Assembly (NCBI RefSeq): GCF_012295575.1
Contig: NZ_CP051180.1
Location: 1,860,001-1,924,000, forward strand
DNA: 64,000 nucleotides
DNA from: Ferrimonas lipolytica
GTDB lineage: Bacteria > Pseudomonadota > Gammaproteobacteria > Enterobacterales > Shewanellaceae
Direction of reading: 5' to 3'
This document shows positions 23,386-62,916 of this stretch, piece by piece. The position numbers and the translations under genes are program-made. The notes under the pieces were generated by a model, which worked only from the letters and a program-made list of their open reading frames with translations, was not told where the DNA came from and did no database searches. Position 1 is the stretch's first letter, and each line of letters starts with the position of its first letter.

Positions 23386-23653
23386 GGCTGTGTCGTAGTT
23401 AGTTGTTGAGTCAAGTCTTCGGCTGTACCGATTGTGTTTGCTAGAGGCTATGTCGCGGCTGCGGCGACACATTCTTATATGCATTAGGGCGGAGCTTCGC
23501 CCCCTTTGTCTTAGGCCACAGTCCAAAACGCGTCGCTGGACTGCTCCAATGCGGCAGAAACTCAACGGCGGTAGTACTTCCCCTTGCATTAAAACTCGCC
23601 TAGCCAGTGCTTTAACAGCATTGGAAAGAACAACACTGAGTTGGTACACAGCC
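23386..23653 (+). repeat. dispersed MITE-like element, copy A
   Basis: 268 bp starting GGCTGTGTCG and ending GGTACACAGCC, giving 8-bp inverted ends GGCTGTGT/ACACAGCC. The flanks TATTGAAA and TATTGCAA match at 7 of 8 positions, consistent with an 8-bp target duplication. Internal landmarks shared by copies are TTCGGCT, TATGTCGCGG, TATGCATTAGGG, GGAGCTTCGCC and AACAGCATTGGAAAGAACAA. It carries no conserved open frame. Confidence 0.85.
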
Positions 23654-23739
23654 TATTGCAACGGCCAACCTTATTATTGTAGTAACACGTTGAGGCAGGA
23701 TAATTTACAAGGGGCTATAGAACGAATAGAAGCGATATG

Positions 23740-23765
23740 AGTGCCCCCACGGATGTGGGCGCACT
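23740..23765 (-). terminator. hairpin after the DUF5062 gene, possible terminator
   Basis: AGTGCCCCCAC and GTGGGCGCACT pair (one C-C mismatch) around GGAT, 13 bp past the stop. There is no clear T-run. Confidence 0.4.
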
Positions 23766-23778
23766 TGAGGCAGGACTA

Positions 23779-24039
23779 CTACTTGAGTAGCGGATGATCA
23801 GCTGGCAATTTACCGGCTATCCACTTAACCAGTCGATGACGAAAATTCTGGGCACTCTCTTGAACCGCAGGCAGTGGCGCGATCAATTTATCATTAACCA
23901 ACAATCGGTAAATCGCTTCAACCTTATTGTCAGCAGAGTCCGTGGGGCTGAATGAGCTATAACCAGCCTTAACCGCATACGCTTGCCCAATCTGCATTGC
24001 AGTCTTAAGTAATTCTTTCTCGTTCTTGAGCTTCTTCAT
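23779..24039 (-). CDS. small conserved protein, DUF5062 family
   Basis: 86 residues from ATG 24039. The sequence (MKKLKNEKELLKTAMQIG at the start, then YRLLVNDKLIAPLP and KLPADHPLLK at the end) fits the DUF5062 family of small cytoplasmic proteins found in Vibrio and Shewanella relatives; no function is known. A GTG eight codons upstream was rejected because GGGGAAG lies directly in front of the ATG. It stands alone, divergent from pyrB. Confidence 0.72.
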   Translation of the reverse strand: MKKLKNEKELLKTAMQIGQAYAVKAGYSSFSPTDSADNKVEAIYRLLVNDKLIAPLPAVQESAQNFRHRLVKWIAGKLPADHPLLK

Positions 24040-24265
24040 CACTTCCCCGTCTTGATAGACCACTTGTACTTCAAGGTAGTTTATAAACTATGCGCGTCCA
24101 CCTTAACTGAAATAACCACAGCATCGCCATGACCAATGCCACATTCGTTAGCAAATTAGACATTCAGATCAGTATCTTAATTTAACCTAGCTGTGGTATA
24201 TTCGCGCTCCGGCTGTGCTTGGCCTGCAAGCATATTCGGTAGATGCCGAAATCGAAGGATTTAGC

Positions 24266-25189
24266 ATGACAAACCCTCTGTTTCAAAAAGACATCATCTC
24301 CATTGCCGACCTGTCCCGGTCCGAACTTGAGTTGATCGTCACCACGGCCCAATCCATTAAAAAAAAACCACGGCCAACCCTACTGTCTGGCAAAGTCATC
24401 GCCAGTTGTTTTTTCGAAGCCTCCACTCGCACTCGACTCTCATTTGAGACCGCAGTCTATCGACTTGGCGGCAGCGTCATCGGTTTTGATTCCGGCGGTA
24501 ACACATCATTGGCGCAAAAAGGGGAAACCCTTGCCGACTCCGTTAATGTAATTGGTTCCTACAGCGATGCATTTGTAATGCGTCATCCGCAAGATGGTGC
24601 CGCTCGTCTTGCCAGCATACACGCCAACGTACCAGTGATTAATGGTGGTGATGGCGCTAACCAGCACCCAACCCAAACATTGCTCGACCTGTTCTCAATT
24701 TATGAAACGCAAGGCACCCTTGAAGGCTTAAAGATCGCCATGGTTGGTGATTTAAAGTATGGCCGCACTGTGCATTCGTTGACTCAGGCGCTAGCGCTGT
24801 TTGGCTGTGAGTTTTTCTTCGTTGCCCCGGAAGCACTGCAGATGCCGGCGTACCTATGCGAAGAGTTAGATTCAGCTGGTGTTAGCTATCAGTTCAGTAA
24901 CGAACTAGAGGCAGTATTGCCACAGCTGGATGTGCTCTACATGACTCGAGTGCAAAAAGAGCGCTTTGACCCAACCGAATATCAGCACATGAAATCTCAG
25001 TTTGTGTTGAGTGCAACCATGCTCCATGACGTAAAGCCGAACTTCAGAATTCTGCACCCTCTGCCTCGCGTCGATGAGATAACCACTGACGTTGATGCAA
25101 CCCCATACGCTTATTATTTCCAGCAAGCGGAAAATGGTGTCTATGCCCGTCAGGCGTTATTGGCGCTGGTATTAACTGAGGATCTGTAA
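24266..25189 (+). CDS. pyrB: aspartate carbamoyltransferase catalytic subunit
   Basis: 307 residues. It catalyses the committed step of pyrimidine synthesis, joining carbamoyl phosphate to aspartate. The carbamoyl-phosphate motif [13 protein letters not shown] is at about residues 49-61, followed by [22 protein letters not shown] and the aspartate-site motif [10 protein letters not shown]. The start at 24266 aligns with E. coli PyrB and has AAGGA seven bases upstream; 17 extra in-frame codons upstream were discarded. It forms an operon with pyrI, which begins one base after the pyrB stop. I saw no clear UTP-sensing leader peptide or attenuator. Confidence 0.96.
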
Positions 25190-25190
25190 G

Positions 25191-25646
25191 ATGAACAAAC
25201 TCCAAGTTGAAGCAATTGAACACGGTACCGTTATCGATCACATCCCAGCGGGGATGGGGGTACGTATTCTAAAGTTCTTCCAGCTGACCGATAACGGCGA
25301 ACGCATTACCGTGGGGTTAAACCTACGTACCAGCGATGGTGGCAGCAAAGACCTTATTAAGGTCGAAAACACCACCTTCTCTAAAGAGCAGGCTGACCAA
25401 TTGGCTTTATTTGCCAGCAGCGCCACCATGAATCTGATCAACAACTTTGAGGTTGTTGACAAGTACCAAGTGCAACTGCCGCAATCGATTGATCGTATAC
25501 TGCAATGCCCAAACAGCAACTGCATTACCCAGCATCAACCGGCTCAAACTCGATTTTACGTAAACCACAGCAACTGCACGCCCACGTTGAAGTGCCAATA
25601 TTGCGAAAAGAGTTTTAGCGTCGGGCTATTTAAAGAGCTTAATTAA
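25191..25646 (+). CDS. pyrI: aspartate carbamoyltransferase regulatory subunit
   Basis: 151 residues. PyrI dimers bridge PyrB trimers and bind CTP (inhibitor) and ATP (activator). The N-terminal nucleotide-binding domain begins MNKLQVEAIEHGTVIDHIPAG. The C-terminal zinc domain has the four cysteines in CPNSNC and CQYC. Presence of pyrI shows the enzyme is the allosteric E. coli-type holoenzyme. Confidence 0.96.
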   Translation: MNKLQVEAIEHGTVIDHIPAGMGVRILKFFQLTDNGERITVGLNLRTSDGGSKDLIKVENTTFSKEQADQLALFASSATMNLINNFEVVDKYQVQLPQSIDRILQCPNSNCITQHQPAQTRFYVNHSNCTPTLKCQYCEKSFSVGLFKELN

Positions 25647-25726
25647 TAAAGGCTGCCCAGGCTTGTTCTGGGCCGCACTTCTCATCCAGTAAAAATACCG
25701 CAACAATTTCCCCACCTATTAAGTTT

Positions 25727-26018
25727 GGCGGTGTACCAACTAAGTGTTGTTCTTTCCAATGCTGTTAAAGCACCGGCTCGACGAGTGTTGATACAAAGGG
25801 AAAGCACTACCGCCGTTGATCTTCTGCCGCATCGGAGCAGTCCAGCGACGCGTTTTGGACTGTGGCCTAAGGCAAAGGGGGATTCCAAAGGGGGCGAAAT
25901 TCGCCCCTAATGCATATAAGAATGTGCCGCCGTCACCGCGACATAACCCCTTAAGAGTACTGCAATCGGTGCAGCCGAAGGCTTGATATAAACCTCAACA
26001 CTTAACTGTGACACAGCC
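25727..26018 (-). repeat. dispersed MITE-like element, copy B
   Basis: 292 bp, inverted relative to copy A. Its plus-strand left end is GGCGGTGTACCAAC (one mismatch in the terminal repeat) and its right end is GACACAGCC. It is full length and includes the internal segment missing in copies D and E. Flanking duplication is not clear. It lies 80 bp after pyrI and about 100 bp before the next gene. Confidence 0.85.
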
Positions 26019-26115
26019 TATTTCATTGGCAAGCCGATACCACTCAACCGCTTTATCAACTACATTAACGCTGACTGCCCCACGGCCGTCACCCCATCTT
26101 TGTTATAGGTTAGGT

Positions 26116-26502
26116 ATGAAACACCAGCAGTGTCAGCACTACTTGTTAGCTAAGCCCGAAACGACTGAGTCTAATCCGTTTGGCCCAGAGGTAGCGGTGT
26201 TTAAAGTGGCCAATAAAATGTTCGCTACTCTATCTTGTAAACGAGACAAACAGCACTGGTGGATGAACCTCAAGTGCGACCCCGATGAAGCACTGGCATT
26301 ACGAGATATTTTTACCGCCGTTATCCCTGGCTATCATATGAACAAGAAGCATTGGAATAGCATTATTCTCGACGGCTCAATTCCTACAGGGGAGATCCAA
26401 CGCATGATCGATAACTCTTACCTGTTAGTGGTTCACTCGCTGCCCAAGCAAGCGCAAACGGCACTGCTATTACAACTCAAGCATCACTGTTCAACTGGGT
26501 AA
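26116..26502 (+). CDS. MmcQ/YjbR-family DNA-binding-like protein
   Basis: 128 residues from ATG 26116. VFKVANKMFATLS, WMNLKCDPDEALALRD, HMNKKHWNSIILDGSIP and EIQRMIDNSYLLVVHSLPK are the conserved segments of the YjbR (CyaY-like fold) family; its cellular role is not established. The frame stays open upstream into repeat copy B (GTG at 26008), but those residues look non-coding, so the internal ATG was chosen. Confidence 0.85.
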   Translation: MKHQQCQHYLLAKPETTESNPFGPEVAVFKVANKMFATLSCKRDKQHWWMNLKCDPDEALALRDIFTAVIPGYHMNKKHWNSIILDGSIPTGEIQRMIDNSYLLVVHSLPKQAQTALLLQLKHHCSTG

Positions 26503-26705
26503 CGACAATAATCTCTTGCCTCATGCAATCTGCGCATAGTTTTAGCAAATGAATACTATTTGCAAGCGAGTCACTACGCTATCCCATTGATTATCAATCA
26601 ACCACTATGCATTTTATACATAATGCCAATGCGTTCAAATCAATATCCTGTAAAACCGTCCTACGCTAAAGTAGCAGCCAATTGCTACTCAACAGGATAA
26701 ACGCC

Positions 26706-27686
26706 ATGTTTAACGCTCTGGTTTTAAACCAAGAAGGTAAAGCGACGATCGCTGCCGTTACCCAAATCGACGAATCACAGTTGCCTCAAGGCGATGTGTT
26801 GGTTGCGGTGGACCGCTCCTCTTTGAACTACAAAGATGGCTTAGCCGTTACCGGTAAGGGCAAGATCATTCGTAACTTCCCAATGGTGCCAGGCATCGAT
26901 TTCGCCGGTACCGTAATTGAGTCCGCCGACGAACGCTTTACTGCGGGCCAACAGGTTATCCTAACCGGTTGGGGCGTTGGTGAGCGTCACTGGGGCGGCA
27001 TGGCAGAAAAGGCTCGAGTTAAAGCCGATTGGTTGGTGCCAATGCCGCAACAATGCGATGCCGATAAAGCGATGGCGATTGGCACCGCAGGTTTAACTGC
27101 CATGTTATGTGTGCAAGCGCTGATCGACGGTGGAGTAACCACAGATAGTGGTGAGGTTTTGGTAACCGGCGCCTCTGGTGGTGTGGGTTCTGTTGCCGTC
27201 ACTGTGCTATCTAAGCTGGGCTACAATGTGGCAGCACTAACCGGACGTGTGGATCAAAACGGTGAGTTGTTGAAGCAATTAGGTGCAACCACCGTCCTTG
27301 AACGCAGCGAACTGGAAGCGGACGGCCGTCCACTAGAAAAAGGACGTTGGGCCGGTGTAGTCGATACCGTAGGGAATACCGTGTTAGCCAATGCATTGGC
27401 GCAAACTGATTACAATGGTGTAGTTGCAGCTTGCGGCTTGGCCGGTGGCTTTGCGCTCCCAACAACGGTAATGCCGTTTATTTTGCGTAATGTGCGCCTG
27501 CAAGGGATCGACTCAGTAATGTGTCCGGTTGCCGTGCGCCAACAAGCGTGGGACAAGCTGATCGAGTTGCTGCCAGAGTCATTCTACACTCAGGCTACCG
27601 AAACCATCGATCTTGCCCAGGTACCGCAGTACGCTGAAGCGATCACCAACGGCCAAGTTACAGGTCGCGTTATCGTTAAAATGTAA
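26706..27686 (+). CDS. acuI: acrylyl-CoA reductase / YhdH-family quinone oxidoreductase
   Basis: A 326-residue zinc-free medium-chain dehydrogenase. Features are LNYKDGLAVTGKGKI, the substrate-domain motif PGIDFAGTV, the NADPH-binding glycine motif VTGASGGVGSVAV (about 152-164) and C-terminal GRVIVKM. AcuI/YhdH enzymes reduce acrylyl-CoA to propionyl-CoA with NADPH and protect against acrylate, for instance from DMSP breakdown in marine bacteria. No DMSP lyase gene is in the window. The ATG at 26706 is preceded by AGGATA. It is convergent with the LysR gene. Confidence 0.87.
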   Translation: MFNALVLNQEGKATIAAVTQIDESQLPQGDVLVAVDRSSLNYKDGLAVTGKGKIIRNFPMVPGIDFAGTVIESADERFTAGQQVILTGWGVGERHWGGMAEKARVKADWLVPMPQQCDADKAMAIGTAGLTAMLCVQALIDGGVTTDSGEVLVTGASGGVGSVAVTVLSKLGYNVAALTGRVDQNGELLKQLGATTVLERSELEADGRPLEKGRWAGVVDTVGNTVLANALAQTDYNGVVAACGLAGGFALPTTVMPFILRNVRLQGIDSVMCPVAVRQQAWDKLIELLPESFYTQATETIDLAQVPQYAEAITNGQVTGRVIVKM

Positions 27687-27743
27687 ATTGCTCCGCAACG
27701 ACTCCCACAGCCCAAGCGCTTAATGGCACTTGGGCTTTTATTT

Positions 27744-28034
27744 GGCTGTGTCAAAGTTAGCTGTTGAGATTTATCTCAAGCCTTCGGCTTTACCGGTTGT
27801 GGCGTTTGAAAGGGTTATGTCGCGGTGGCGACGGCACATTCTTGTATGCATTGGGGGGGAGCTTCGCCCCCGTTGGAATCCCCCTTGCCTTAGGTCGCAG
27901 CCTAAAACGCTTCGCGGGACCACTCCAATCCGGCAGAACATCAGCGGCGGCAGTGCTTAACCCGTTGTATCAAAACTCGCCTTGCCGGCGCTTTAACAGC
28001 ATTGGAAAGAACAACACTTAGTTGGTACACAGCC
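27744..28034 (+). repeat. dispersed MITE-like element, copy C
   Basis: 291 bp, full length, from GGCTGTGTCA to TACACAGCC. The flanks CTTTTATTT and TTTTTATTT match at 8 of 9 positions. It fills the space between the convergent acuI and LysR genes and ends 3 bp before the LysR stop codon. Confidence 0.87.
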
Positions 28035-28037
28035 TTT

Positions 28038-28964
28038 TTATTTTAATTCGCCGCTAAGCAAGCTTTGGGTCGCCAGGGTTATCTGTTCGCGCAGCCAGCG
28101 TTGGCCCGGATCGTACTCGGTGCGTGAGTGCCAGAACAGCTGGTAGTCGATGCGAGGCATGGTAAACGGCAATGTCTTTACAACCAATTGGTGCTGTTGT
28201 GCCACCATTTCCGCCATACCAGAAGGCATAATTAGCATCACGGCTTGCAGCGGCAATACCGCCAAGGTGCTGTCTAGGTTCGGACTGCGGATCAACGGTG
28301 GTAACACCCCGTAATCCATCATCGCATCATCAAGCAGTGCCTTAACGCCATCACTCACGGCGATAATCGCGTGCTGATATTGGGAAAAATGACACTCGGT
28401 AAGGTCCTCTTGCGCCAATGGATGATCCGCTGCCACCAGACAACGCACTCCCACCTGCCCTAGCTCTTGTCGGTTCAGTGGTGCTGGTGCGTTAGTATCG
28501 CGGCATATCGCCACATCAACCCCTTTGATACTAAGCTGAGCTAACAATTCCTGCTGCTGTACTGGGGTGATCTCAAGTCGCAATTGCGGTGCCTGCTGAT
28601 AAAGCCGTTTTAAGATCAGTGGAATACAGGCCTGCATGGCAAAATCAGTAACGGCAATGGTAAAACGTTGCTGACAGCTCTGCGGTGAAAACGTTTTCGG
28701 TGAAAATAGGTTGCTCAACTGCGCAATCGGCTGTTGCAGTTGCCGTTCGCATTCAAGTGCAAACTCGGTTGGCTCCAAACGTTGCCCAACCCGATTAAAC
28801 AACGGATCGTCGAGCATCTGCCGTAAGCGCGATAAGATCCTACTGGTGGCTGACTGGCTAAGGTGTAAACGTTGCGCCGCCTTAGTGACGCTGCGCTCTT
28901 CCAACAGTACTTGCAACGCGATCAACAAGCTCAAATCACGGCGATATAACTCTTCCAATTCCAT
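28038..28964 (-). CDS. LysR-family transcriptional regulator
   Basis: 308 residues. The N-terminal helix-turn-helix (about 10-70) contains LQVLLEERSVTKAAQRLHLS and SATSRILSRLRQMLDDPLF. The C-terminal effector domain is of periplasmic-binding-protein type. No divergent partner gene is close, since the upstream neighbour is repeat copy D and then a crotonase gene on the same strand, so the target is not evident. acuI, convergent across copy C, is a possible but unproven target. Confidence 0.88.
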   Translation of the reverse strand: MELEELYRRDLSLLIALQVLLEERSVTKAAQRLHLSQSATSRILSRLRQMLDDPLFNRVGQRLEPTEFALECERQLQQPIAQLSNLFSPKTFSPQSCQQRFTIAVTDFAMQACIPLILKRLYQQAPQLRLEITPVQQQELLAQLSIKGVDVAICRDTNAPAPLNRQELGQVGVRCLVAADHPLAQEDLTECHFSQYQHAIIAVSDGVKALLDDAMMDYGVLPPLIRSPNLDSTLAVLPLQAVMLIMPSGMAEMVAQQHQLVVKTLPFTMPRIDYQLFWHSRTEYDPGQRWLREQITLATQSLLSGELK

Positions 28965-29120
28965 CCAGTATCGATCCGCTTAGCTATGCCGTTTAAAGTA
29001 ATATCCGCTTAGTTTACTGAACAGCTAGCAAACCCACTAGTTGTAAACCGATAAAACTGAATGGTTACGAGTAGAGCAACGGCGAATGCTTCATAAATCG
29101 AATCAAGCCCTCAAAATAAC

Positions 29121-29341
29121 GGCTGTGTCACAGTTAAGTATTGAGGTTTATATCAAGCCTTCGGCTGTGCCGATTGCGGTGCTTTAGGGGAGGATGTCGC
29201 GGTGGTGAGAGCACACTCTTGTATGCATTAGGGGGGAGCTTCGCTCACTTTTGAATACCCCTTGCCTTAGGTCGTCGTCCAAAACGCTTCGCTGGACCGC
29301 TCCAATGCGGCAGAAGAACAACACTTAGTTGATACACAGCC
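29121..29341 (+). repeat. dispersed MITE-like element, copy D, internally deleted
   Basis: 221 bp, from GGCTGTGTCA to GATACACAGCC. About 70 bp present in copies A-C is missing between GGCAGA and AGAACAACAC, with AGA microhomology at the joint. AAAATAA occurs on both sides, one base away on the left, as a likely target duplication. Confidence 0.85.
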
Positions 29342-29425
29342 AAAATAATGCGCTAACAGGGAGCTTTCTCAGTAACATGTGTTGGCAAATGGCAGTGTGG
29401 TGCTGCATGGGGTAAGCCCAACAAC

Positions 29426-29457
29426 TGCCCAATAGCGAAAGAGTTTGCTATTGGGCA
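29426..29457 (-). terminator. hairpin after the crotonase gene
   Basis: TGCCCAATAGC and GCTATTGGGCA form an 11-bp stem with a 10-nt loop about 90 bp past the crotonase stop. The absence of a T-run makes the assignment uncertain. Confidence 0.4.
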
Positions 29458-29543
29458 ATTATGTAGCTCAAACAGGGTGGTTATTATCAATGGTTAGCTC
29501 GGATTTACTCTGCTGAAGTAGCACTCCAACTTTAGCCTCACCG

Positions 29544-30323
29544 TTACTTCCCTTTGAATCGCGCTGCACGTCGTTCCATAAACGACGCCACACCTTCGGC
29601 AGCGTCTTCTGAGTTCATTACCGTTGGCATCTCATCAAACACAGCGTTGAGTGCAGCTTGCTCCCCATCAAAGCGCGCCACTTTAGAAGAGCGCAGCGAT
29701 GCTTGAACACCTAGAGGAGCGGCGTTGGCAATCTTTGCTGCCAACTGCGCCGCCTTTTGTGGCAACTCTTCCCGTTCGCACAGTTCGTGCACCATACCCC
29801 ACTGGTGTGCTTGTGCACCACTCCACTCGTCACCAGTCAGCAGGTGGCGCTGGGCATTGCCCCAACCAATCACCTTAGGCAAACGAATTGTACCGCCACC
29901 ACAAGGGTAGATCCCGCGTTTCACCTCCAATTGCGCGAAGCGAGTGGTCGCAGTAGAGAAGTGATAATCACAGTTTAACGACAGCTCTACCCCACTGGTA
30001 TAACAAAGGCCATGAGTGGCGATGAGCAGTGGCTTTGACAATCTAGGTCCAGTAACACCGAACGGGTCGAGCTCACCCTCAGCCGGCTGAGGAATGCCGC
30101 CAGCGGCAAACACCGGTGCCCACTGATCCAGTTCAATCCCAGCAGTAAAGTGCTTACCGGACGCTAGAATCACCCCTACCCGCAAATCGTCGTCATGCTC
30201 AAGCTCATACATCGCTTTAGCCAAACCATGGTAACTGGCGATATCTAACGCGTTGTATTTCTCAGGCCGATTAAAGGTAAACGTTAAGATATGATCTTTT
30301 TTCTCTACAACAAATGCGCTCAT
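29544..30323 (-). CDS. enoyl-CoA hydratase/isomerase family protein (crotonase fold)
   Basis: 259 residues, the usual crotonase length. The CoA/oxyanion-hole motifs are FNRPEKYNALD, SGKHFTAGIELDQW (about 55-68) and GLCYTSGVELSLNCDYHF. The second catalytic region, RFAQLEVKRGIYPCGGG, keeps a glutamate. The usual GGG before the catalytic glutamate is TSG here, so the reaction (hydratase, isomerase or other) is not certain. It lies 170 bp downstream of an acyl-CoA dehydrogenase gene on the same strand and may be co-expressed for fatty acyl-CoA oxidation. Confidence 0.87.
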   Translation of the reverse strand: MSAFVVEKKDHILTFTFNRPEKYNALDIASYHGLAKAMYELEHDDDLRVGVILASGKHFTAGIELDQWAPVFAAGGIPQPAEGELDPFGVTGPRLSKPLLIATHGLCYTSGVELSLNCDYHFSTATTRFAQLEVKRGIYPCGGGTIRLPKVIGWGNAQRHLLTGDEWSGAQAHQWGMVHELCEREELPQKAAQLAAKIANAAPLGVQASLRSSKVARFDGEQAALNAVFDEMPTVMNSEDAAEGVASFMERRAARFKGK

Positions 30324-30496
30324 GCTGCACTCCTTGATACCAAGTATATTAACTAGTTACTTCCTGCCAACTGCTCACATCAATGAGCCAGCATTTGCAG
30401 GATCACACTGGACTAGCTGAAACCAACGGACAAGGCTAAACCGATAGAGGGTGCGCTTAGCCCCTGACCCGCCAACCAATATGGGTGTACCAAGTA

Positions 30497-32287: not shown

Positions 32288-32391
32288 CTGCCATTTTTCC
32301 TTAAACCCTATTTGTTTTAAGTATCTGGCTTTTCTTTCATAACCACGATTGTCATTATGGACACTCATGGTGTTAAAAGTGACATACGGAT

Positions 32392-33378: not shown

Positions 33379-33547
33379 GAAATAATATTCGAGCCAAAAT
33401 CACAACTAACTCTATAACGTGAATGAGTAAGCGCACCGCGCTACAGTGCGCCTGCTAACGTTTGTTGCCCCTGCAGGTGAACATGTTTACTTTTATAAAA
33501 TTTTAGGTTCAAAAAAGTTGTGAATTCCATTTATTTGTGACGTTCCC

Positions 33548-33561
33548 CTGAGAACTCTCAG
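33548..33561. promoter_or_regulatory. inverted repeat upstream of the ferredoxin-YdhV operon
   Basis: CTGAGAACTCTCAG, a 6-bp inverted repeat with a 2-bp centre, 60 bp before the ferredoxin start. It is a candidate operator; no regulator is assigned. Confidence 0.3.
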
Positions 33562-33620
33562 TGCTTGCTGATGATTAATAAATACATCGATTCCGTTGTA
33601 ATAAGAGCGAAGTAATCATC

Positions 33621-34265: not shown

Positions 34266-34281
34266 TTAGGAAATCCAGATT

Positions 34282-36495: not shown

Positions 36496-36497
36496 CG

Positions 36498-37004: not shown

Positions 37005-37009
37005 ATAAA

Positions 37010-42065: not shown

Positions 42066-42998
42066 ATGGCGGGTTTGATCCCAGAGCTTCAGGCTTGGCA
42101 GCAACAGGGGCAATATTTTAGTTGGCGCAACCATCAAATATTCTTTGGTGAGCAAGGCCAAGGCCCAGCACTGGTTCTTATTCATGGTTTCCCGTCCGCC
42201 AGTTGGGATTGGCAATACCTACTGCCGATGCTAAGCCAACACTATCGAGTTATCTATCTGGATATGCTTGGCTTTGGCTTCAGTGACAAACCACTGCAAC
42301 CTTACCTAATCGCACATCAAGCCGACGTAATCGAAGCCTTATGTCAGCATCTGAATGTCGAACAGATGCACATTTTGGCTCATGATTATGGCGATACGGT
42401 CGCGCAAGAGTTGTTAGCCCGACAGTTAAATAAACAGCACACTATCAGTTGCCTTTCCTGCGCACTATTAAACGGCGGCTTGTTTCCTGAATCTCATCGG
42501 CCGCTATTGGTGCAGAAGCTGTTAGGTAGCTCATTAGGGCCGATCTTTGGCCGCTTTTTCCGCCAGCAAACCCTAACCAAAAATCTAACCCGGATTTGGG
42601 GCGACAAACAACCGACGCCGTTGGAGCTGCTTGGAATATGGCAGCTATTGCGCTTTAACAATGGTGAACGCGCTCTGCCCTATATCATTCGCTATATGGA
42701 GGAGCGCAAGCAACATCGCGAACGCTGGTTATTCGCGATTGCGGAAACCACCATTCCGTTTGTTCTGATTGATGGTGTTGATGACCCAATATCAGGTCAG
42801 TCACTGGTGAATCGCTTCAAGACGCTGATCCCAGAAAAAACCGTCTGTGAACTGCAAGGCGTTGGCCACTACCCACAACTGGAAGCGCCGCAGCAGGTAC
42901 TCACCCACCTACTGCCATTTCTTCAGCACGCGCAGTCTTACATCGAGCAAGCTGATTGCAACTACACTACCGGACTAGACAAACAAAAGGCTGTATAG
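42066..42998 (+). CDS. alpha/beta hydrolase, MEST-like, 3' end altered by repeat insertion
   Basis: 310 residues. LIHGFPSASWDWQYL, YLDMLGFGFSDKP, ILAHDYGDTVAQELLAR, GGLFPESHRPLLVQKLL and GHYPQLEAP closely resemble the vertebrate MEST/PEG1 hydrolase and bacterial relatives. The nucleophile position is Asp in HDYGD, as in epoxide hydrolases and haloalkane dehalogenases, with His in the GHYP motif. The substrate is unknown. The last codons (Lys-Ala-Val-stop) lie in element copy E. Without the insertion the frame would read Lys-Val-Val-Cys-Val-Met-Val-Ala-stop. Confidence 0.86.
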   Translation: MAGLIPELQAWQQQGQYFSWRNHQIFFGEQGQGPALVLIHGFPSASWDWQYLLPMLSQHYRVIYLDMLGFGFSDKPLQPYLIAHQADVIEALCQHLNVEQMHILAHDYGDTVAQELLARQLNKQHTISCLSCALLNGGLFPESHRPLLVQKLLGSSLGPIFGRFFRQQTLTKNLTRIWGDKQPTPLELLGIWQLLRFNNGERALPYIIRYMEERKQHRERWLFAIAETTIPFVLIDGVDDPISGQSLVNRFKTLIPEKTVCELQGVGHYPQLEAPQQVLTHLLPFLQHAQSYIEQADCNYTTGLDKQKAV

Positions 42999-43183
42999 CA
43001 ACTAAGTGTTGTTCTTTCTAATAGAGTTAAAGCACTGGCGAGTCGGGTTACAAAGGGGGCGAAGCTCCCCCCTAATGCATACAAGACTGTGCCGTCGCCA
43101 CCGCGACATAGTCCCCTAAAAGCACCAAAATCGGTGAAGCCGAAGGCTTAAGATAAACTTCAACAGCTAACTACGACACAGCC
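42989..43183 (-). repeat. dispersed MITE-like element, copy E, with perfect target duplication
   Basis: 195 bp; plus-strand ends are GGCTGTATAG and GACACAGCC. It is flanked on both sides by AAACAAAA, a perfect 8-bp duplication, which shows insertion. About 95 bp of the internal segment in copies A-C is absent. It overlaps the last 10 bases of the MEST-like hydrolase gene. It shares subfamily-specific bases with copy F. Confidence 0.92.
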
Positions 43184-43221
43184 AAACAAAAGGTCGTTTG
43201 CGTCATGGTTGCATAACCCCT

Positions 43222-50016: not shown

Positions 50017-50036
50017 GGCCACATTTTGAGAGAACC

Positions 50037-50453: not shown

Positions 50454-50465
50454 CTCGCGTTACTC

Positions 50466-50510
50466 TGTTGCTTGATTAACCGTTGTTGCAACGGTGAGCG
50501 TCAAGCAACA
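50466..50510. other. nested double hairpin between the MarR and UPF0016 genes
   Basis: An outer perfect 10-bp stem, TGTTGCTTGA with TCAAGCAACA, encloses an inner stem ACCGTTG with CAACGGT (3-nt loop). It could be the MarR terminator (no T-run) or a leader structure of the next gene. Confidence 0.5.
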
Positions 50511-50555
50511 GCAATACTCTTTTCCGCACAATAGCTATATAGATCCAACAATCCA

Positions 50556-51146: not shown

Positions 51147-51183
51147 TATTTTCTGCCGAGCAGCGACATAAATTGAAGATACA

Positions 51184-51210
51184 AAAAGGGCTCCCGAAGG
51201 AGCCCTTTTG
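51184..51210. terminator. bidirectional rho-independent terminator
   Basis: AAGGGCTCC, a CGAA loop and GGAGCCCTT, with A-run before and T-run after. It serves the UPF0016 gene on plus and the lactate oxidase gene on minus. Confidence 0.88.
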
Positions 51211-51229
51211 TTATCCATAACACTATCGC

Positions 51230-54070: not shown

Positions 54071-54100
54071 GTGATCTGTTCCCTAAGGTCTAAAACGACA

Positions 54101-54152
54101 AATCGAGCCATAGGCTCGATTATTCAGTTCATAGCTAGGTTATTAATAACCT
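54101..54152 (-). promoter_or_regulatory. leader hairpin and 16-bp palindrome upstream of the lactate oxidase
   Basis: AATCGAGCC-ATA-GGCTCGATT (54101-54121) forms a 9-bp stem in the putative 5' leader. Beyond it, AGGTTATTAATAACCT (54137-54152) is a perfect palindrome and a good candidate operator. Half of it, ATTAATAAC, recurs at 56157-56165 upstream of lldP. Confidence 0.5.
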
Positions 54153-54320
54153 TAAATAAATAATGCGAACTAGCGCCTATGTTGCGATGAAAAAATGTTG
54201 ATTGTGTGTTTCGCTAACCACATCACTTTTTCTTGAAACTGCAATTCAGTGCTAATCACGCTTATCTCATTCTCTTTGAACCCCATCACGATTCATCGTT
54301 GCTTGGAGCAAAGAGGAAAA

Positions 54321-54350
54321 CAGAAGTCAGACCTATGCGCCTGACTTCTG
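54321..54350 (-). terminator. rho-independent terminator of lldP
   Basis: CAGAAGTCAG and CTGACTTCTG pair around a 10-nt loop, followed on the minus strand by TTTTCC, 20 bp after the lldP stop. So lldP and the lactate oxidase are at least partly separate units. Confidence 0.75.
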
Positions 54351-54370
54351 CGCTTACTTAAGTGGGGTTT

Positions 54371-56017
54371 TTAGTAACCGCCCCAAAAGAAAGCGATGGT
54401 GCCAGCAACCATGGCGTAAGCCAGAGCAACAGGCAGAGTCTTACGAATAATCTCAGACTCACGGCCAGCCATGCCAACAACGGTAGCCGCAGCAACAACG
54501 TTCATTACACACATCATGTTACCGGCGTTAGCACCGATACCTTGCAGTGCAAGAATCAAGGCATGGTTTGCACCGATGTTGTCAGCAACAGAGAACTGCA
54601 GGCCAGAGAACATCATGTTAGAGAAGGTCGCAGAACCGGATAGGAAGGCTCCGAAGATACCAACAACTGGAGCGGTCCATTCCCATACTGAACCCATGGT
54701 CGAAGCCAACAGTTCAGCCAATGCTTTTGGCATAGACAGCAAACCAGATGCGTTTTCACCTGAGTTCAGGAAGATCTTCACCATCGGTACAGAAGCACCC
54801 AAGGAGATGATGGTTGGAACCATAGACTTACAAGAATCAGTGAATGCGCCTTTGAATGCAGCAGGTTTCATCTTGAAGATGAAGAAACCCAAGATACATA
54901 CGGCAACGAAGAAAGCACCAGGAGCATAGAAAGTTGCGAAACCCGCTTTCAGGTTGGTTCCAAGCAGGCCAGTCCAGCTCATGTTGAAGCTAACTAGGAA
55001 AGACTTCAGTGGCGCAACGGTACGAGACAGTACCAGCAACGCAGCCATAACCAAGTAAGGAGTCCACGCAGCCAGCTGAGAGAACTTCGCTTCGCTTTGC
55101 TCTGCTTCTTCTTTCTTTTCTACGCCTTCGAAATCAAACCAAGGGGTCTCAGGCAGCAAGAAGCCTTTCTTGGCAGCAGGGATTACTACAGCCATACCAA
55201 CCAGAGCACCAATCACAGATGGGAACTCAGGACCAGCGAAGTAGTTAATCAACCAAGCAGGAACGGTGAACGCTAGACCAGCGAACAAAGCAAACTTCCA
55301 AATGGCCAAACCTTCTGCGAACGATTTGTTGCGACCGAAGAAACCAGTTAGAACTGCAACCAATGCTACTGGGATCAGAGAACCGGTAATCAAATCGATG
55401 GTAATCATGTGCATTGCGATTAACTGAGCGTAATCAGCGAAGGTTGCACCAGCGCCCATTGCAGCGATCTGCTCTGCAGCCATGTGGCCAGCGGATGAGG
55501 TCAGACCCTGATCCATACCAAACAGAACTGGTAGACCAATTGCGCCGAAAGATACCGAGGTCGAATCAGCAATCAGAGCAACTACAGCAGCAGCCAGTGG
55601 TGGCACACCCAGCAATACCAATAGCGGAGCACCGATTGCGGCAGGGGTACCGAAACCAGCTGAACCTTCAATGAAGGAACCGAACAACCAACAGATAATG
55701 ATTACCTGAACACGGGCATCCGCAGAGATGTTGGTGAAACCAGCGCGAATGGTATCCATAGCGCCAGAAGCAGCTAGGGTCTTCAACAAGAAGATTGCAC
55801 CAAAAATAATGGTCAGCGGAGTAATGGCCGCCAACATCCCTTCAACCACAGAGGCGGCAAGGATGGTGGTGTCCATCTGCCATACAAATACTGCAGCCAG
55901 TGCAGTCAGTACAGCGGAGATTGGCATGGCACGAGATGCAGGCATACGCATCAGTACCAAGAACACTAGCACCGAAATAATCGGCGTTAATGTAGCAATG
56001 GTTTGAATAAAGGTCAC
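54371..56017 (-). CDS. lldP: L-lactate permease family transporter
   Basis: 548 residues from GTG 56017, chosen because GAGGA lies seven bases upstream and the result begins like relatives; the frame extends 23 codons further without support. About 12-14 membrane segments. [20 protein letters not shown] is the LldP signature (about 108-127), and [15 protein letters not shown] follows near the C-terminus. It imports lactate (also glycolate in relatives) with protons, supplying the oxidase encoded downstream. Confidence 0.92.
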
Positions 56018-56730
56018 AATTGGATCCTCAAAAAAATGTCGAATTTGCGTCAGCAGCTTCGAGCTACTTGCCCTCATCGAAGACAAGTAGATCGATGTCG
56101 CACATTTTAGTTTGTTGAGGATGGGTTACTGTGACAGTTATCACCAACACGATCGCATTAATAACTTTCATGTTCTTGGCTTGCTTTATGCCAACATGCT
56201 GCAAAAACATTCAACAATTAGCCAACTCAACCCCCATTAGCAGCGATTATTTTCATGACAAAACAGTCAGCTCATCAACGATGTACAAACATTGACCATT
56301 TCAATGAAATTATCACTAACTCGCTACCGTTTTTATTGCTCATTTTTGCGACTTGATGCGAATAATTTCAGAAAATCGTGGACCAACTTTTCAACCTAAC
56401 TCGACATTCACTGCCTAAGTGTTTCGTAGGTCACACTCTATTTGCACGTTATTGCCACCCAAATTGGTGCTCGCTTTTACGTCAATCCGAGCAAAAGGCA
56501 TCGTTCTCATAACAAAACAAAACCAACTTGTTTACATGGTTTATGGGATTGATTACTACGGATTACGGAAGTAACACCTGCTGATGGATTAAAATTACCG
56601 TGCTATAAAAGTAATTGAATATGCAATTTCATTTTTGCGCTGAGGAGCTTCTAATTGAGTCGCGAAATTGTCCAAGGGGATTGCTGTTTCGTTTGGACCA
56701 TCGTGATTGCTACGTTGCCGCATGCTACAA
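56018..56730. other. long intergenic region upstream of lldP
   Basis: About 700 bp between lldP and the guaA terminator, without a convincing gene. It should contain the lldP promoter. ATTAATAAC at 56157-56165 matches half of the palindrome in front of the lactate oxidase gene. An open frame at 56615-56854 is not supported. Confidence 0.5.
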
Positions 56731-56767
56731 CGAAAATCGGCCACAACACTGTTGTGGCCGATTTTCG
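56731..56767 (-). terminator. perfect 17-bp hairpin terminator after guaA
   Basis: CGAAAATCGGCCACAAC and its exact complement flank a 3-nt loop, 42 bp after the guaA stop. The AAAA/TTTT arms can act as the T-run, so it may work in both directions. Confidence 0.85.
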
Positions 56768-56808
56768 AAAGTCAAACGGGTTGTTAGCTGCGAGCTAACT
56801 CGACCAGT

Positions 56809-58383
56809 TTATTCCCACTCGATGGTTGCCGGCGGCTTACCGGAAATATCGTAAACCACGCGCGATATCCCTTCGATTTCATTGATGATGCGATTGGAAA
56901 CCTTACCTAAAAAATCATACGGCAGGTGGGCCCAGTGCGCCGTCATAAAGTCGATGGTTTCTACCGCGCGAAGGGAAACAACCCAATCGTACTTACGGCC
57001 ATCACCCATGACGCCAACGGACTTTACTGGCAGGAACACGGTAAACGCTTGAGAAACCTTGTTGTACAAATCAGCTTTATGCAGTTCATCAATGAAGATC
57101 GCATCGGCACGACGTAATAAGTCGCAGTACTCTTTCTTCACTTCACCCAGAACACGTACGCCTAAACCAGGCCCAGGGAATGGATGACGGTACAGCATGT
57201 TGTACGGTAAACCGAGCTCTAGGCCAATCTTGCGTACTTCATCTTTAAACAACTCGGTTAGTGGCTCAACCAAGCCCAGTTCCATATCTTCTGGCAGGCC
57301 ACCAACGTTGTGGTGTGACTTGATCACATGCGCTTTACCGGTCGCCGCACCAGCGGACTCGATCACATCAGGATAGATGGTGCCCTGTGCTAACCATTTT
57401 ACTTCTTGAATGCGGCTAGCCTGCTCATCAAACAACTCGATAAAGGTGTGGCCAATCGCTTTGCGCTTTAGTTCAGGATCATTGATGCCCTTCAGGGCAT
57501 CCAAGAAACGCTGCTCAGCATCAACTCGAACGATGTTAAGTCCAAAATGGTCGCCAAACATCTCCATCACCTGATCGCCTTCGTTTAAACGCAGCAAGCC
57601 GTTATCGACAAAGACACAGGTAAGTTGCGAGCCAATGGCGCGATGCAGCAGCATTGCCACAACGGAAGAATCCACACCACCGGATAGCCCAAGGATTACC
57701 TTGTCGCTACCCACTTTCTGTTTGATACGCACAATAGCGTCATCGATGATAGCACTGGAGGTCCATTTAGCTTCACAGCCACAGATATCCAATACGAAGT
57801 GCTCTAGCATGCGTTTGCCTTGCTTAGAGTGAGTTACTTCAGGGTGGAACTGTACGCCGTAGAAGTGACGAGACTCATCCGCCATGGCAGCGTATGGGCA
57901 GGTTTCGGTCTCAGCTATTTTGCTAAAGCCCGCGGGGATCTCAGTCACCTTGTCACCGTGGCTCATCCACACGTCAAGCAATGCGTTGCCGTCTTCACTT
58001 ACCGCATCTTCGATGTTTTTAAACAGCTTGGTTGCTGCCAACACCTTAACCTGGGCATAGCCAAATTCACGATGATCAGAACCAGAAACCTTACCGCCTA
58101 ACTGCTCGGCCATGGTCTGCATGCCGTAACAGACACCCAACACTGGAACACCGGCATCAAATACGTATTCAGGAGCGCGTGGCGAGTTCGCTTCAGTTAC
58201 CGACTCTGGGCCACCGGAAAGCACGATGCCGGTTGGGTTAAAGTCACGGATCTGCTGTTCAGATACGTCCCATCCCCACAGTTCGCAATAGACGCCGATT
58301 TCGCGAACACGGCGAGCGACTAACTGAGTGTACTGGGAACCAAAATCTAGGATCAGGATACGGTGGTCATGGATATTGCTCAT
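56809..58383 (-). CDS. guaA: GMP synthase (glutamine-hydrolysing)
   Basis: 524 residues. It converts XMP to GMP with glutamine and ATP. The class I amidotransferase domain has the nucleophile Cys in [15 protein letters not shown] (about 86) with His and Glu in [11 protein letters not shown]. The ATP-pyrophosphatase loop [13 protein letters not shown] is near residue 235. The C-terminal dimerisation domain ends PPATIEWE, as in E. coli. It is downstream of guaB with an intervening terminator hairpin. Confidence 0.97.
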
Positions 58384-58416
58384 GAGCTTTGTTTCTCTTT
58401 TTATAAGTGTTGTAAA

Positions 58417-58439
58417 AAGGGCAGACTCCGTCTGCCCTT
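58417..58439 (-). terminator. terminator hairpin between guaB and guaA
   Basis: Minus strand: AAGGGCAGAC, GGA loop, GTCTGCCCTT, then TTTT. It lies 8 bp after guaB and 34 bp before the guaA start, so guaA expression would depend on read-through or its own promoter. Confidence 0.75.
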
Positions 58440-58447
58440 CATCCCGA

Positions 58448-59911
58448 TTAACCCATACGGTAGTTCGGTGCTTCTTTAGTAATGGTTACGTCGTGAACGT
58501 GAGATTCTTTAATGCCAGCGCCGGAGATCCGAACAAATTCAGCTTTAGTACGCAGGGCTTCGATGGTGCCGCAACCGGTCAAACCCATGCATGAACGTAA
58601 GCCGCCCATCTGCTGGTGAATGATCTCTTTCAACTTACCTTTGTAAGGGATGCGACCTTCGATACCTTCTGGCACCATTTTGTCGGCAGCATTGTCGCTC
58701 TGGAAGTAACGATCCGATGAGCCTTGGCTCATGGCACCTAAAGAGCCCATACCACGGTAGGACTTAAAGGCACGGCCTTGATACAGCTCAGTTTCACCTG
58801 GTGCTTCTTCCGTACCCGCAAACAAACCACCAGCCATAACACAGGATGCTCCTGCAGCCAGCGCTTTGGCGATATCACCGGAGAAACGAATACCACCATC
58901 GGCGATAACTGGAATACCGTGCTTGTCACATACTGCGGCAGCATCAGCAACTGCGGTGATCTGTGGTACACCCACACCGGTAACGATACGAGTGGTACAG
59001 ATTGAACCTGGGCCAATCCCCACTTTCACGGCATCAACGCCAGCGTCAATCAACGCTTGCGCGCCTTCTGCTGTAGCTACGTTGCCACCAACGATTTGCA
59101 CCTCAGGGAATGCGGCTCGGGTTTCGCGAATGCGCTGTAATACACCTTCGGAATGGCCATGGGAGGAATCCAGCAGGATGATATCAACACCGGCTTCAAC
59201 CAAGGCGGCAACACGCTCTTCGTTACCAGCACCTGCACCAACGGCTGCGCCAACACGAAGGCGGCCCAGCTCATCCTTACATGCATGTGGTTTCTGCTCC
59301 GCTTTCTGGAAGTCCTTAACGGTGATCATGCCCTTAAGCTTGAATGCCCCATCCACTACCAATACCTTTTCGATACGGTGCTTGTGCATCAGTGCTTGTG
59401 CGTCAGTAAGAGCTGCACCCTCTTGCACGGTGATCAGCTGATCTTTCGGAGTCATCAGTTCTGGCACCGTGAGATCTGGATTAGTTACAAAACGAACGTC
59501 ACGGCCGGTAACGATACCAACCAGCTCGCCGCTTTCGGTTACCACAGGGAAGCCAGCGAAACCGCATTTATGAGTCAGCTCGCGCAGCTCCATCATGGTA
59601 GTTTCTGGGGTTACGGTTACTGGGTCTTGAACCACACCAGCTTCGTATTTCTTCACTTTACGAACTTCGTTAGCTTGCTGCTCGATGCTCATGTTTTTGT
59701 GAATAAACCCTAGGCCACCTTCTTGTGCCATCGCAATAGCCAAACGCGCTTCAGTCACAGTATCCATCGCAGCGGACAACAGTGGCAAATTAAGCGAGAT
59801 TGTTTTGGTCAGTTTGGTGCCAAGAACGGCAGTATTAGGAAGAACGGTAGAGTGGGCTGGGCATAACAAAACGTCGTCAAACGTCAGTGCCTCTTGTTTA
59901 ATTCTTAGCAT
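58448..59911 (-). CDS. guaB: inosine-5'-monophosphate dehydrogenase
   Basis: 487 residues. It oxidises IMP to XMP with NAD+, the first committed step to GMP. The barrel contains the catalytic loop [20 protein letters not shown] with the nucleophilic cysteine near residue 305. A CBS pair is inserted at about 90-205 ([36 protein letters not shown]). It is divergent from xseA with 124 bp between, as in many gammaproteobacteria. Confidence 0.97.
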
Positions 59912-60035
59912 TGCAACATTCCACCTGAGTAGGGTTTTGGGTTTGAAATATTGCTGGCGGAGTATAGCGATCTGATCTTGTCAGAACAATGATAAATTGT
60001 TACTTATGTTCGATTAATTTCAAAATTGGGTTCAA

Positions 60036-61373
60036 TTGTTTCTCGTGTCGAACAATATCCTTACCGTTTCCGGCCTTAGTCGCCAAATTAAACAGCTATT
60101 AGAAGGCAATTTAGGTCGCGTTTGGCTTAGCGGCGAAATTTCCAATTTAGCGACCCCTGCGTCCGGCCACATCTACTTTACTCTCAAAGATGATCGGAGC
60201 CAGATCCGTTGTGCGATGTTTCGCAGTCGTGCCGGTCGAGTTACCTTTGCTCCTGCTAACGGCCAGCAAGTACTGGTTCGTGCCAACCTAACCATGTATG
60301 AACCCCGTGGCGATATTCAGCTGGTAGTTGAGTCCATGCAACCCGCCGGTGACGGCCTACTTCAGCAACAGTTCGATGCGCTAAAGATGCGCCTTGCCGC
60401 TGAGGGCTTGTTCGCCACTGCCGCCAAACAACCATTGCCTAAGGCGTTACGTCGACTTGGGGTTATCACCTCAGCCAGCGGCGCAGCGATTCAAGATGTG
60501 TTGAGCGTGCTGCAGCGACGAGATCCAATGTTGCAAGTGGTTATCTACCCAACCTTGGTACAGGGCCGTGACGCCACTGCAAGCATCTGTCAGGCGCTTT
60601 ATACCGCCAACCAACGCAACGAGGTTGATTGCTTGCTACTAACCCGTGGTGGTGGCTCTATGGAGGATCTGTGGTGCTTCAACGAAGAAGCCGTTGCCCG
60701 CGCTGTGTTTGCATCGACACTGCCGGTTATTAGCGCCGTCGGCCACGAAGTGGATACCACCATCTGCGATTTTGTTGCTGATGTGCGCGCACCAACCCCA
60801 TCAGCGGCAGCGGAACTGCTCAGCCAAGACCGTAGCCACCTGTTACGGCAGACAGAACAACTGCAACAGCGATTATTACGCGCTACCCGTGGCCAACTTA
60901 CCCATCAACAACACCGGCTTGCCCTACTCGCTTCTCGGTTGGACGCGGCTCACCCGAAGAACCAGCTACAAACCCATTATCAACGCTTGGATGAGCTGAG
61001 CGCTCGTTTGCACCGTGGTATCGAAAAACAGCTGCAACTGGGCAGATTCAAGCAGCAACAGCTGTCGCAACGATTAATGAGCCAGCATCCACAACGCCGC
61101 ATTACCTCTGGCCAACAGCAATTAACGCAACTCCAACGCCGACTGGTGCAGGGACAACAACAGTTGCTGCAAAGGAATAAGCTGCAGTTAGCAAAGCTCG
61201 TCGCCACCTTAGAAGGTGTATCACCATTGGCGGTATTGAGTCGCGGCTACGCCATCCCAACCAACGCCAAGGGCAGCAACATTGTCGATAGTGCTCAGGT
61301 CGAGGTAGGCGAAACGATTAAGCTGCGATTACACCGTGGCAACCTAGCTGCCAAGGTAACCTCAACCTCATAA
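60036..61373 (+). CDS. xseA: exonuclease VII large subunit
   Basis: 445 residues. ExoVII digests single-stranded DNA from both ends together with XseB. The N-terminal OB-fold (about 8-100: [20 protein letters not shown]) is followed by the nuclease core with [15 protein letters not shown] and [20 protein letters not shown], then a long Gln-rich coiled-coil arm (about 270-390). The start is ambiguous: TTG 60036 gives 445 residues, while GTG 60045 (Met-Ser-Asn-Asn) would fit relatives about as well. Neither has a clear Shine-Dalgarno. Confidence 0.94.
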
Positions 61374-61380
61374 ACAGAAA

Positions 61381-62529
61381 TCAGCCAGCGATAATTTGAT
61401 TACCACCGAGTTCAGAAGCTTGAACTAAGGCTTGAGTAGCTCGTTCATGCATGCCACTCAAGTGGTCGTCGCCACCACTCCAGAGGCTCACTCCAATTGA
61501 GAGCTCAATGTCGATAGTAGCCCCGCTGGGCAGCATAAACGGACTGCTATCGATGCGCTGCTTAAGATGGTTGACCCACTCCAATCCAGCTTGAGCGGAT
61601 TCCGCTGCAAAAAACAGTGCAAACTCATCCTGTTTCATCCGGGTCACTAGCGCTTGCTCACCAGCATAGCCACGAAGGAGCTTGGCCAAAAACTGTAACA
61701 CCAAATCACCAACCGGCCGGCCGTATTGTTGATTAACGAGCTTAAACCGGTCGATATCGATTACCACTACCGTTGCCACACGATTCCGATTGAGGCAATG
61801 AAGTAGATCGCTGGCACCTTGTTCATCAAAACGGCGTCGGTTACCTAAGCGCGTCAGCGGATCAGTAAAGGCCATATCACGATAGCGGCCAATAGTGTTT
61901 TGATCACGGCCAACATCGTGGATGGTGGTACACAGCACGCGCCGGCCGAACCAGTCGACAACAAAATCATGGATCCGTGTTTGTAGTTTATTACCCATGC
62001 AGCTCCAACTGACAGACACTGGTTCAGAAACCAAGTAACCATCACTCATCAACTGCTGGTAGTTGCTGAGGGCTGCCGGCCAATGTTCTTCGCCAATCAA
62101 AGGGCGGATCGAGTCCATCTTCAACAACTGCTTTATCGAGCTGAGCTGAAATAGATCGACGTATGCTTGGTTAGCAAACAGTGGTTTGAAGTTATCATGA
62201 ACCAAAATAGGGCGAGGATTTTCTAGCAACAGTTGGCCGAAGTTTGGCTCTAACGCTGGTCGTAATTGAGTCAGCCAACTTTGATGTTGCTCAAGCCATT
62301 TCGATTCCACCATCCACGGCAAACCTTGGTCACTAACAAACAGTTGATTACTAACGTCAGAGACCGTCCGAAGTTTCGATTTCACCTGTGGATCAGACAG
62401 AAAAGACCTACCCGACTCATTACAAGCAAACACCTCGCCATCAAGATGAACGATGGCTGCATCGGTTAAATAATTAAGCCAGTGAAATTCTGTAGCTACG
62501 GGCTGTGCCGTTAGCGGAGTTATCGACAT
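61381..62529 (-). CDS. GGDEF-family protein with degenerate active site
   Basis: 382 residues. Two PAS-like regions (about 15-70 and 100-200) precede a GGDEF domain (about 215-380: DPLTRLGNRRRFDEQ, VVVIDIDRFKLVNQQYG). The signature loop is KQDEF in VTRMKQDEFALFF instead of (G/S)GDEF, so both catalytic glycines are replaced. Diguanylate cyclase activity is unlikely unless this variant is tolerated; a GTP- or signal-binding regulatory role is more probable. No EAL domain, no membrane segment. It is convergent with xseA, 7 bp apart. Confidence 0.85.
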   Translation of the reverse strand: MSITPLTAQPVATEFHWLNYLTDAAIVHLDGEVFACNESGRSFLSDPQVKSKLRTVSDVSNQLFVSDQGLPWMVESKWLEQHQSWLTQLRPALEPNFGQLLLENPRPILVHDNFKPLFANQAYVDLFQLSSIKQLLKMDSIRPLIGEEHWPAALSNYQQLMSDGYLVSEPVSVSWSCMGNKLQTRIHDFVVDWFGRRVLCTTIHDVGRDQNTIGRYRDMAFTDPLTRLGNRRRFDEQGASDLLHCLNRNRVATVVVIDIDRFKLVNQQYGRPVGDLVLQFLAKLLRGYAGEQALVTRMKQDEFALFFAAESAQAGLEWVNHLKQRIDSSPFMLPSGATIDIELSIGVSLWSGGDDHLSGMHERATQALVQASELGGNQIIAG

Positions 62530-62634
62530 TGATTAGGGGGCTCTTAAAGATTCTGATCTGGAGTCTATCTTTGCAAGATTTACAATTTGTTATCAACCGT
62601 CACAGCCAAATTAACTATCTCGATGCAAAAAAAC

Positions 62635-62916
62635 GGCTGAGTAACGACTAAGTGCTGTTCTTCCCAATGTTGTTAAAGTACCGGCAAGATGAGTGTTAAT
62701 ACAAGGGTAAAGCACTACCGCCGTTGATCTCCTGCCGCACTGGAGCAGTTCAGCGAAGTGTTTGGGACTGCGACCTAATGCAAGGGGGGGCAAAGGGGCG
62801 AAGCTCCCCCCTAATGCATACAAGAATGTGCCGCCGCGACATAGTCTCTTAAAAACACCGAAATCGGTGAAGCCGAAGGCTTAAGATAAACTTCAACAGC
62901 TAACGACGACACAGCC
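62635..62916 (-). repeat. dispersed MITE-like element, copy F
   Basis: 282 bp; plus-strand ends GGCTGAGTAACG (one mismatch in the terminal repeat) and GACACAGCC. Its interior is nearly full length. In sense orientation it shares TTGAAGTTTATCTTAAGCC and nearby bases with copy E, so these two form a subfamily. Flanks are A-rich but without an exact duplication. It lies between the GGDEF gene and der. Confidence 0.85.

Follow-up and report, generated by a model that had tools for sequence, protein, structure and literature searches.

A miniature transposable element of Ferrimonas lipolytica and its target sites at terminator T-tracts

Why should one short repeat turn up again and again between the genes of a compact bacterial chromosome, and what decides where its copies lie? 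The question is raised by six related repeats in a 64,000-nucleotide stretch of Ferrimonas lipolytica (bases 1860001-1924000 of its single 4,133,133-bp contig), hereafter the window. An earlier note, made from the letters alone, had taken the repeat for a miniature inverted-repeat transposable element (MITE), that is, a short transposable element that carries no gene, and the present analysis supports this view. As the whole explanation we propose, with a probability of roughly 85%, that the MITE was moved in trans by a transposase of the IS1595 family, that it went preferentially into the T-tracts of intrinsic terminators and that the family has since decayed. The MITE itself is of a familiar type, and what deserves notice is its choice of target; the earlier note had recognised neither the terminator T-tract target nor the broken parent element nor the age of the family.

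The family and its target sites

A profile made from 35 copies was run over the window and 80 evenly spread stretches, together 1.664 Mb of the 4.13-Mb chromosome, and gave 165 hits, compared with none in the same DNA reversed. Because of this difference, and because the copies have ungapped stretches in common (up to 200 nt at 82% identity, 155 nt at 84%), their similarity is not due to chance. The hits chain into 149 copies or fragments, from which a genome total of about 370 is extrapolated, fragments and array units counted in; over the whole genome the pattern of the right end has 248 matches, against 4 for the backward control. Both ends are present in 104 of the 149, with spans of 105-318 bp and a mode near 290, far under the 1 kb of the insertion sequence (IS) described below, and the element holds no transposase gene. 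The 80 stretches contain on average 1.79 copies per 20 kb, so that about six copies are expected in 64 kb and the window holds the usual number.

The elements run from GGCTGTGT to TTAGCTGTTG. The inverted ends, put at 8 bp in the earlier note, in fact reach, imperfectly, about 24 bp: the outer 8 bp are nearly perfect and a weaker similarity continues after GGCTGTGT, the left and right ends of the consensus agreeing at 16 of 25 positions. Flank counts rest on the 95 of the 149 copies whose two ends come within 3 positions of those of the model and whose flanks are long enough. Their two flanking 8-mers have a mean identity of 0.787, compared with 0.408 for shuffled pairs; 28 of the 95 duplications are perfect, where shuffling gives a mean of 0.64, and 72 match at six or more of eight positions. 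The signal is specific to 8 bp and drops away at lengths 7 and 9. With left 8-mers that are 87% A+T, the AT-rich 8-bp target duplication which the earlier note had suggested is borne out, and ends, duplications and copy number, combined with the negative Rfam and covariation results given below, all speak for a MITE.

What kind of place has been duplicated? The flanks often read, in this order, a GC-rich hairpin, a T-rich 8-mer, the element and the same 8-mer again. When a terminator-like target is defined as a hairpin of -8 kcal/mol or stronger (the unit of all energies that follow) that is immediately followed by an 8-mer containing 4 or more T, such a target is found at 55 of the 95 full copies, compared with 104 of 760 AT-matched intergenic sites and 164 of 760 intergenic sites matched for a run of A or T. 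For the 72 copies whose duplication matches at six or more positions the empty site was reconstructed by joining the flanks, and these sites were used for the offset and composition tests. The end of the hairpin is in register with the duplicated 8-mer, give or take some 3 bp: a hairpin ends at an offset between 0 and 2 from the start of the 8-mer in a fraction of 0.44-0.47 of the sites, a fraction that is mostly 0-0.10 elsewhere in these loci. Hairpins of -8 or stronger are present at 44 of the 72 sites (61%), compared with 34-37% of sites matched to their composition profile by a position weight matrix and 31% of AT-matched controls in 3′ untranslated regions (3′-UTRs, up to 100 bp past a stop codon); at -12 or stronger the count is 38 (53%), compared with 14-18% and 21% of these two sets of controls. 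Since the matched controls stay below the observed 61% and 53%, composition accounts for a part of the signal and not for all of it. Gaps between convergent genes hold 47 of the 91 insertions (out of the 95) that have a predicted gene on both sides, compared with 148 of 778 gaps in general. Seen from the other side, 666 terminator-like sites lie in the sample and the T-tract is occupied by an element in 55 of them (8%). The elements show no clear preference for one direction over the other with respect to the terminator (25 same, 17 opposite).

The six copies of the window and the empty site of copy C

Direct reading of the sequence and profile matches place the six repeats exactly where, and in the orientation in which, the earlier note had put them.

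23386..23653, plus strand: MITE copy A, 268 bp; flanking 8-mers TATTGAAA / TATTGCAA, 7/8 identical
25727..26018, minus strand: MITE copy B, 292 bp; target duplication no longer recognisable (2/8)
27709..27736, plus strand: intrinsic terminator hairpin behind the open reading frame (ORF) 26682-27686, -17.9 kcal/mol, abutting the insertion of copy C
27736..27743, plus strand: left target copy of C, TTTTATTT, which is the T-tract of the hairpin at 27709..27736; right copy TTTTTATT at 28035-28042 (6/8)
27744..28034, plus strand: MITE copy C, 291 bp
29121..29341, plus strand: MITE copy D, 221 bp, with an internal deletion towards the right end; flanks AAAATAAC / AAAATAAT, 7/8 (read directly)
42981..42988, no strand: left target copy of E, AAACAAAA; right copy at 43184-43191 identical (8/8)
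42989..43183, minus strand: MITE copy E, 195 bp, with a central deletion; overlaps the end of ORF 42066-42998 by its first 10 bp
62635..62916, minus strand: MITE copy F, 282 bp; target duplication not clear (4/8)

The outer 8 bp of the inverted ends are perfect in A, C and D and carry one mismatch each in B, E and F. D and E have suffered different internal deletions, D keeping model positions 1-203 and E positions 1-139 and 232-291, and E forms a subfamily with F, to which it is 93% identical, compared with 80% to B, over 87 bp. In these details the earlier description is confirmed. The 8-bp duplications that it led one to expect are present at A, C, D and E and cannot be recognised at B and F.

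One insertion, that of copy C, was compared in 13 congeners, and none of the 13 loci holds the element. In congener G010 a terminator free of the element, its stem similar and followed by a T-tract, stands at the end of the gene that lies upstream of copy C; the downstream gene is, within the stretch compared (L188), not the LysR-like one of the window. In congener G012 (L191) the convergent pair is kept, and a terminator of -20.7 with a different stem, likewise free of the element, stands between the two genes. A strong hairpin with a T-tract is found in the first 130 bases after the gene in 5 of the 13 congeners and is absent in 8. For this site only, the comparison of sequences fits a terminator that predates the element. 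The existence of element-free versions of the site also speaks against a repeat fixed at every orthologous locus, one of the outcomes by which, according to the earlier note, the MITE would have fallen. Another, that the repeat belongs to a conserved coding gene, agrees poorly with the finding that an ORF of at least 100 aa encloses the two flanks of just 1 full copy out of 95.

Elsewhere in the window, at 9083-22428, four long ORFs on the minus strand (950, 874, 865 and 865 aa) have repeated stretches in common at a spacing of 3.1-4.0 kb and make up a tandem gene family.

An IS1595-type parent and its relatives

Where did the transposase come from? The earlier note had guessed at an IS1595-like source, and this is supported, because the sole match to PF12762 (IS1595) in the genome, at 3637657-3637941, lies inside a 1029-bp element whose two ends depart from the end pattern of the MITE by 2 mismatches and 1 mismatch and which is flanked by an 8-bp duplication (7/8). 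Its transposase, when read through, contains 9 stops (6 TGA, 1 TAG and 2 TAA). A second IS1595 relic, of 439 bp at 3351056-3351494 (L231), has lost the middle of the gene and has no duplication left (3/8). No intact IS1595 copy was found in the genome among the candidates scored (2 of 2 in one search and 5 of 9 in another), in searches for this transposase family. Intact 1023-bp copies exist in F. futtsuensis, where they code for a 315-aa transposase that matches NF033547 at 185 bits (cut-off 75), and congener G008 holds an IS found with identical flanks in F. futtsuensis contigs. The left end of the MITE matches the transposase-side end of the F. futtsuensis IS at 22 of 24 positions; against the relic in its own genome the match is 20-21 of 24. 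Shared ends of this kind suggest that an IS1595 transposase would have moved the MITE in trans.

As for the age of the family, the 63 copies (out of the 95) with a length of 270-300 bp are on average 90.5% identical to the consensus (9.5% divergence), and the closest pair is 96.4% identical; the 72 duplications have a mean identity of 90%, a value biased upward by the cut at 6 of 8. Since the copies have diverged and both IS1595 copies found are broken, the family looks inactive in this genome. Beyond F. lipolytica, copy C has no match in 57 of the 59 other genomes searched nor in plasmid and phage DNA collections, and a numerous family is present in only one of the 13 congeners, G010.

Some loci are worth recording in their own right. 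The 439-bp relic L231 is possibly a snapshot of an IS on its way to becoming non-autonomous. In array L233 (909390-910299) MITE copies follow each other head to tail, with two junctions consisting of an 8-mer, inside a single outer 8-bp duplication, TTTTTGTT. Array L232 (1003357-1004754) contains about eight units of the MITE core, 175-190 bp each and without the ends, beside an ORF of 694 aa; it seems to be a minisatellite derived from the MITE.

The target preference recurs in related elements. The family of G010 has the same type of ends and a core in common with that of F. lipolytica, and comprises at least 45 matches (40 of 79 candidates scored). An end can be recognised at 18 of the 30 loci taken from it (L201-L230) and not at the other 12; 11 of the 18 have a hairpin of -8 or stronger at offsets near 0, followed in 9 of the 18 by at least 4 T. 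The F. futtsuensis IS has two testable left flanks, in which CTTTTTTG comes after hairpins of -15.3 and -16.7; its two remaining copies run into the contig edge on that side. These four loci (L129-L132) are contig ends of probably two insertions. In Telluria antibiotica and Massilia pinisoli, related IS stand at hairpins of -12.8 or stronger in 7 of 7 cases, compared with 44 of 205 AT-rich control sites from these loci, within genes as well as between them, at the -12 threshold. More generally, in a set of 51 IS1595 loci ends and duplications were found for 18, 10 of which have a hairpin of -8 or stronger: the seven Telluria/Massilia loci, the two of F. futtsuensis and L157. Loci L031 and L162 are one and the same relic.

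Weighing the explanations

Taken step by step, the proposed course of events is the following. An IS1595-family DDE transposase would bind the ends of about 24 bp and move the gene-less element in trans, and each insertion would duplicate 8 bp of an AT-rich target. The preferred target would be the T-tract directly after an intrinsic terminator hairpin, most frequently in a gap between convergent genes. Since it is the T-tract that is duplicated, a run of Ts still follows the hairpin and the host should pay little for the insertion, its gene presumably retaining a working terminator. This low cost may be the reason for the success of the family, which would have grown, within a single Ferrimonas lineage, to a few hundred copies before the transposase genes decayed and the copies drifted. 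Rebuilding the T-tract by duplication is a possible safe-haven strategy.

Several observations weigh against this explanation or narrow it. The wrong-way form, a hairpin followed by at least 4 A, is itself somewhat raised (14 of 95 full copies, compared with 63 and 61 of 760 in the two sets of intergenic controls), and 22 of the 72 reconstructed sites have no hairpin of -6 or better. A preference for an AT-rich 8-mer with GC-rich edges could account for much of the signal, since controls matched in composition already reach 34-37% at -8, and selection against harmful insertions may contribute. Between the right end of the MITE and the IS ends only 16-17 of 24 positions agree, and past 24 bp no significant similarity to the IS was detected (p 0.13-0.61), so that the interior is either of other origin or diverged beyond recognition. 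The full-length relic in F. lipolytica does not lie at a strong hairpin (-4.1), and the G010 counts come from a slide profile without a composition-matched control, with most loci represented by one side only. Distant IS1595 elements with clear ends and duplications of 7/8 or 8/8 have a hairpin and a T-rich 8-mer in 1 of 11 cases, L157 at -10.0, which among L135, L146, L157, L161 and L163 is also the only one with a hairpin of -8 or stronger. From plasmids, 15 IS1595 loci were run, taken from the matches listed for 40 of 121 plasmid records. Six of these, from Azotobacter, Octadecabacter, Acidovorax, Alteromonas, Aeromonas and Shewanella, have clean ends and 8/8 duplications, and none of the six is at a hairpin with a T-tract, in contrast to the preference of the MITE; one of the six, L239, has a hairpin of -14.5 beside a T-poor 8-mer, and the other nine loci have no trustworthy ends. 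A terminator preference as a rule for all IS1595 elements is therefore rejected (0 of 6 on plasmids, 1 of 11 distant elements overall), and it looks restricted to a part of the family.

What, then, does the transposase recognise? Its cue may be the hairpin, the GC-to-AT step in base composition or active termination. Our tentative answer, which we hold at a little under even odds, is that one IS1595 clade recognises terminators, whether by the hairpin, the T-tract or the terminating polymerase, and that the 8-bp duplication regenerates the T-tract; the MITE would thereby have gained, by other chemistry, a haven like that of group IIC introns and spread cheaply to hundreds of sites. It is possible, on balance doubtful, that the transposase follows just the usual IS1595 preference for AT-rich 8-mers between GC-rich edges, terminators being the commonest such places and selection having cleared the others. 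The sites are indeed GC-rich immediately on either side of the duplicated 8-mer, the matched controls at -8 point the same way, and the near absence of copies within ORFs implies strong purging or avoidance; furthermore ISEc69, another IS1595 element, makes AT-rich 8-bp duplications inside genes in E. coli, and the accessible part of its description mentions no terminator preference (PMC7835479). A preference for composition does not, however, readily explain why hairpins of -12 or stronger so exceed both the weight-matrix and the 3′-UTR controls, or why their ends are in register with the duplicated 8-mer.

Could the repeat instead be a structured non-coding RNA or a regulatory element under selection? 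It has a GC-rich hairpin core, and some of its middle columns are better conserved than their neighbours. Nevertheless we consider this very unlikely: no Rfam family matches in the window at the gathering score, so that a known structured RNA family, which the earlier note had named as an outcome contrary to its view, was not encountered; none of 52 predicted pairs has changed on both sides in 30 copies; and the drift of the copies from their consensus, their many deletions and their narrow distribution among genomes all point away from it. That the MITE itself makes the adjacent terminators is less probable still. Some bacterial repeats do hold terminator-like sequences, SPRITE among them according to the part of the source consulted (PMC10969869), whereas the hairpins described here are located outside the duplicated 8-mer, vary in sequence between sites and, behind the gene at copy C, have counterparts without the element in two congeners.

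Insertion into terminator T-tracts by a trans-acting IS1595 transposase, the explanation that we prefer, can be set beside several known systems, as far as these are described in the parts of the cited literature accessible to us. The IS1595 family (DDE, PF12762 / NF033547) is alike in its ends and its AT-rich 8-bp duplication and differs in coding for a transposase. Correia, Chunjie, ERIC and QMITE elements are likewise short, with inverted ends and many intergenic and truncated copies (PMC10969869); no insertion into terminator T-tracts is reported for them there, whereas the MITE of F. lipolytica has this target and an identifiable, broken IS1595 parent. Group IIC introns do insert at intrinsic terminator motifs (PMC4424553, PMC7923331), but they are retroelements consisting of an intron RNA and a reverse transcriptase, and the element here consists of DNA, has inverted ends and duplicates 8 bp of its target. 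Membership in that group was considered and rejected, given the negative Rfam result and a length too short for a reverse transcriptase gene; the comparison serves as a working likeness. IS that target REP palindromes (PMC1525189) are likewise DNA transposons aimed at stem-loop intergenic DNA, with the difference that their target is a repeat family and the terminators used here differ in sequence. A DDE element aimed at terminator T-tracts is not reported in the accessible literature; subscription papers and the 2009 paper on the IS1595 family were beyond this search, and novelty is to that extent unproven.

Should a DDE transposase indeed read terminators, one would have an example, accessible to tests, of a mobile element repairing its own target, and an explanation for the hundreds of sites that a single MITE can occupy in a compact genome. 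Since F. futtsuensis has an intact transposase together with matching ends, the question is open to direct experiment.

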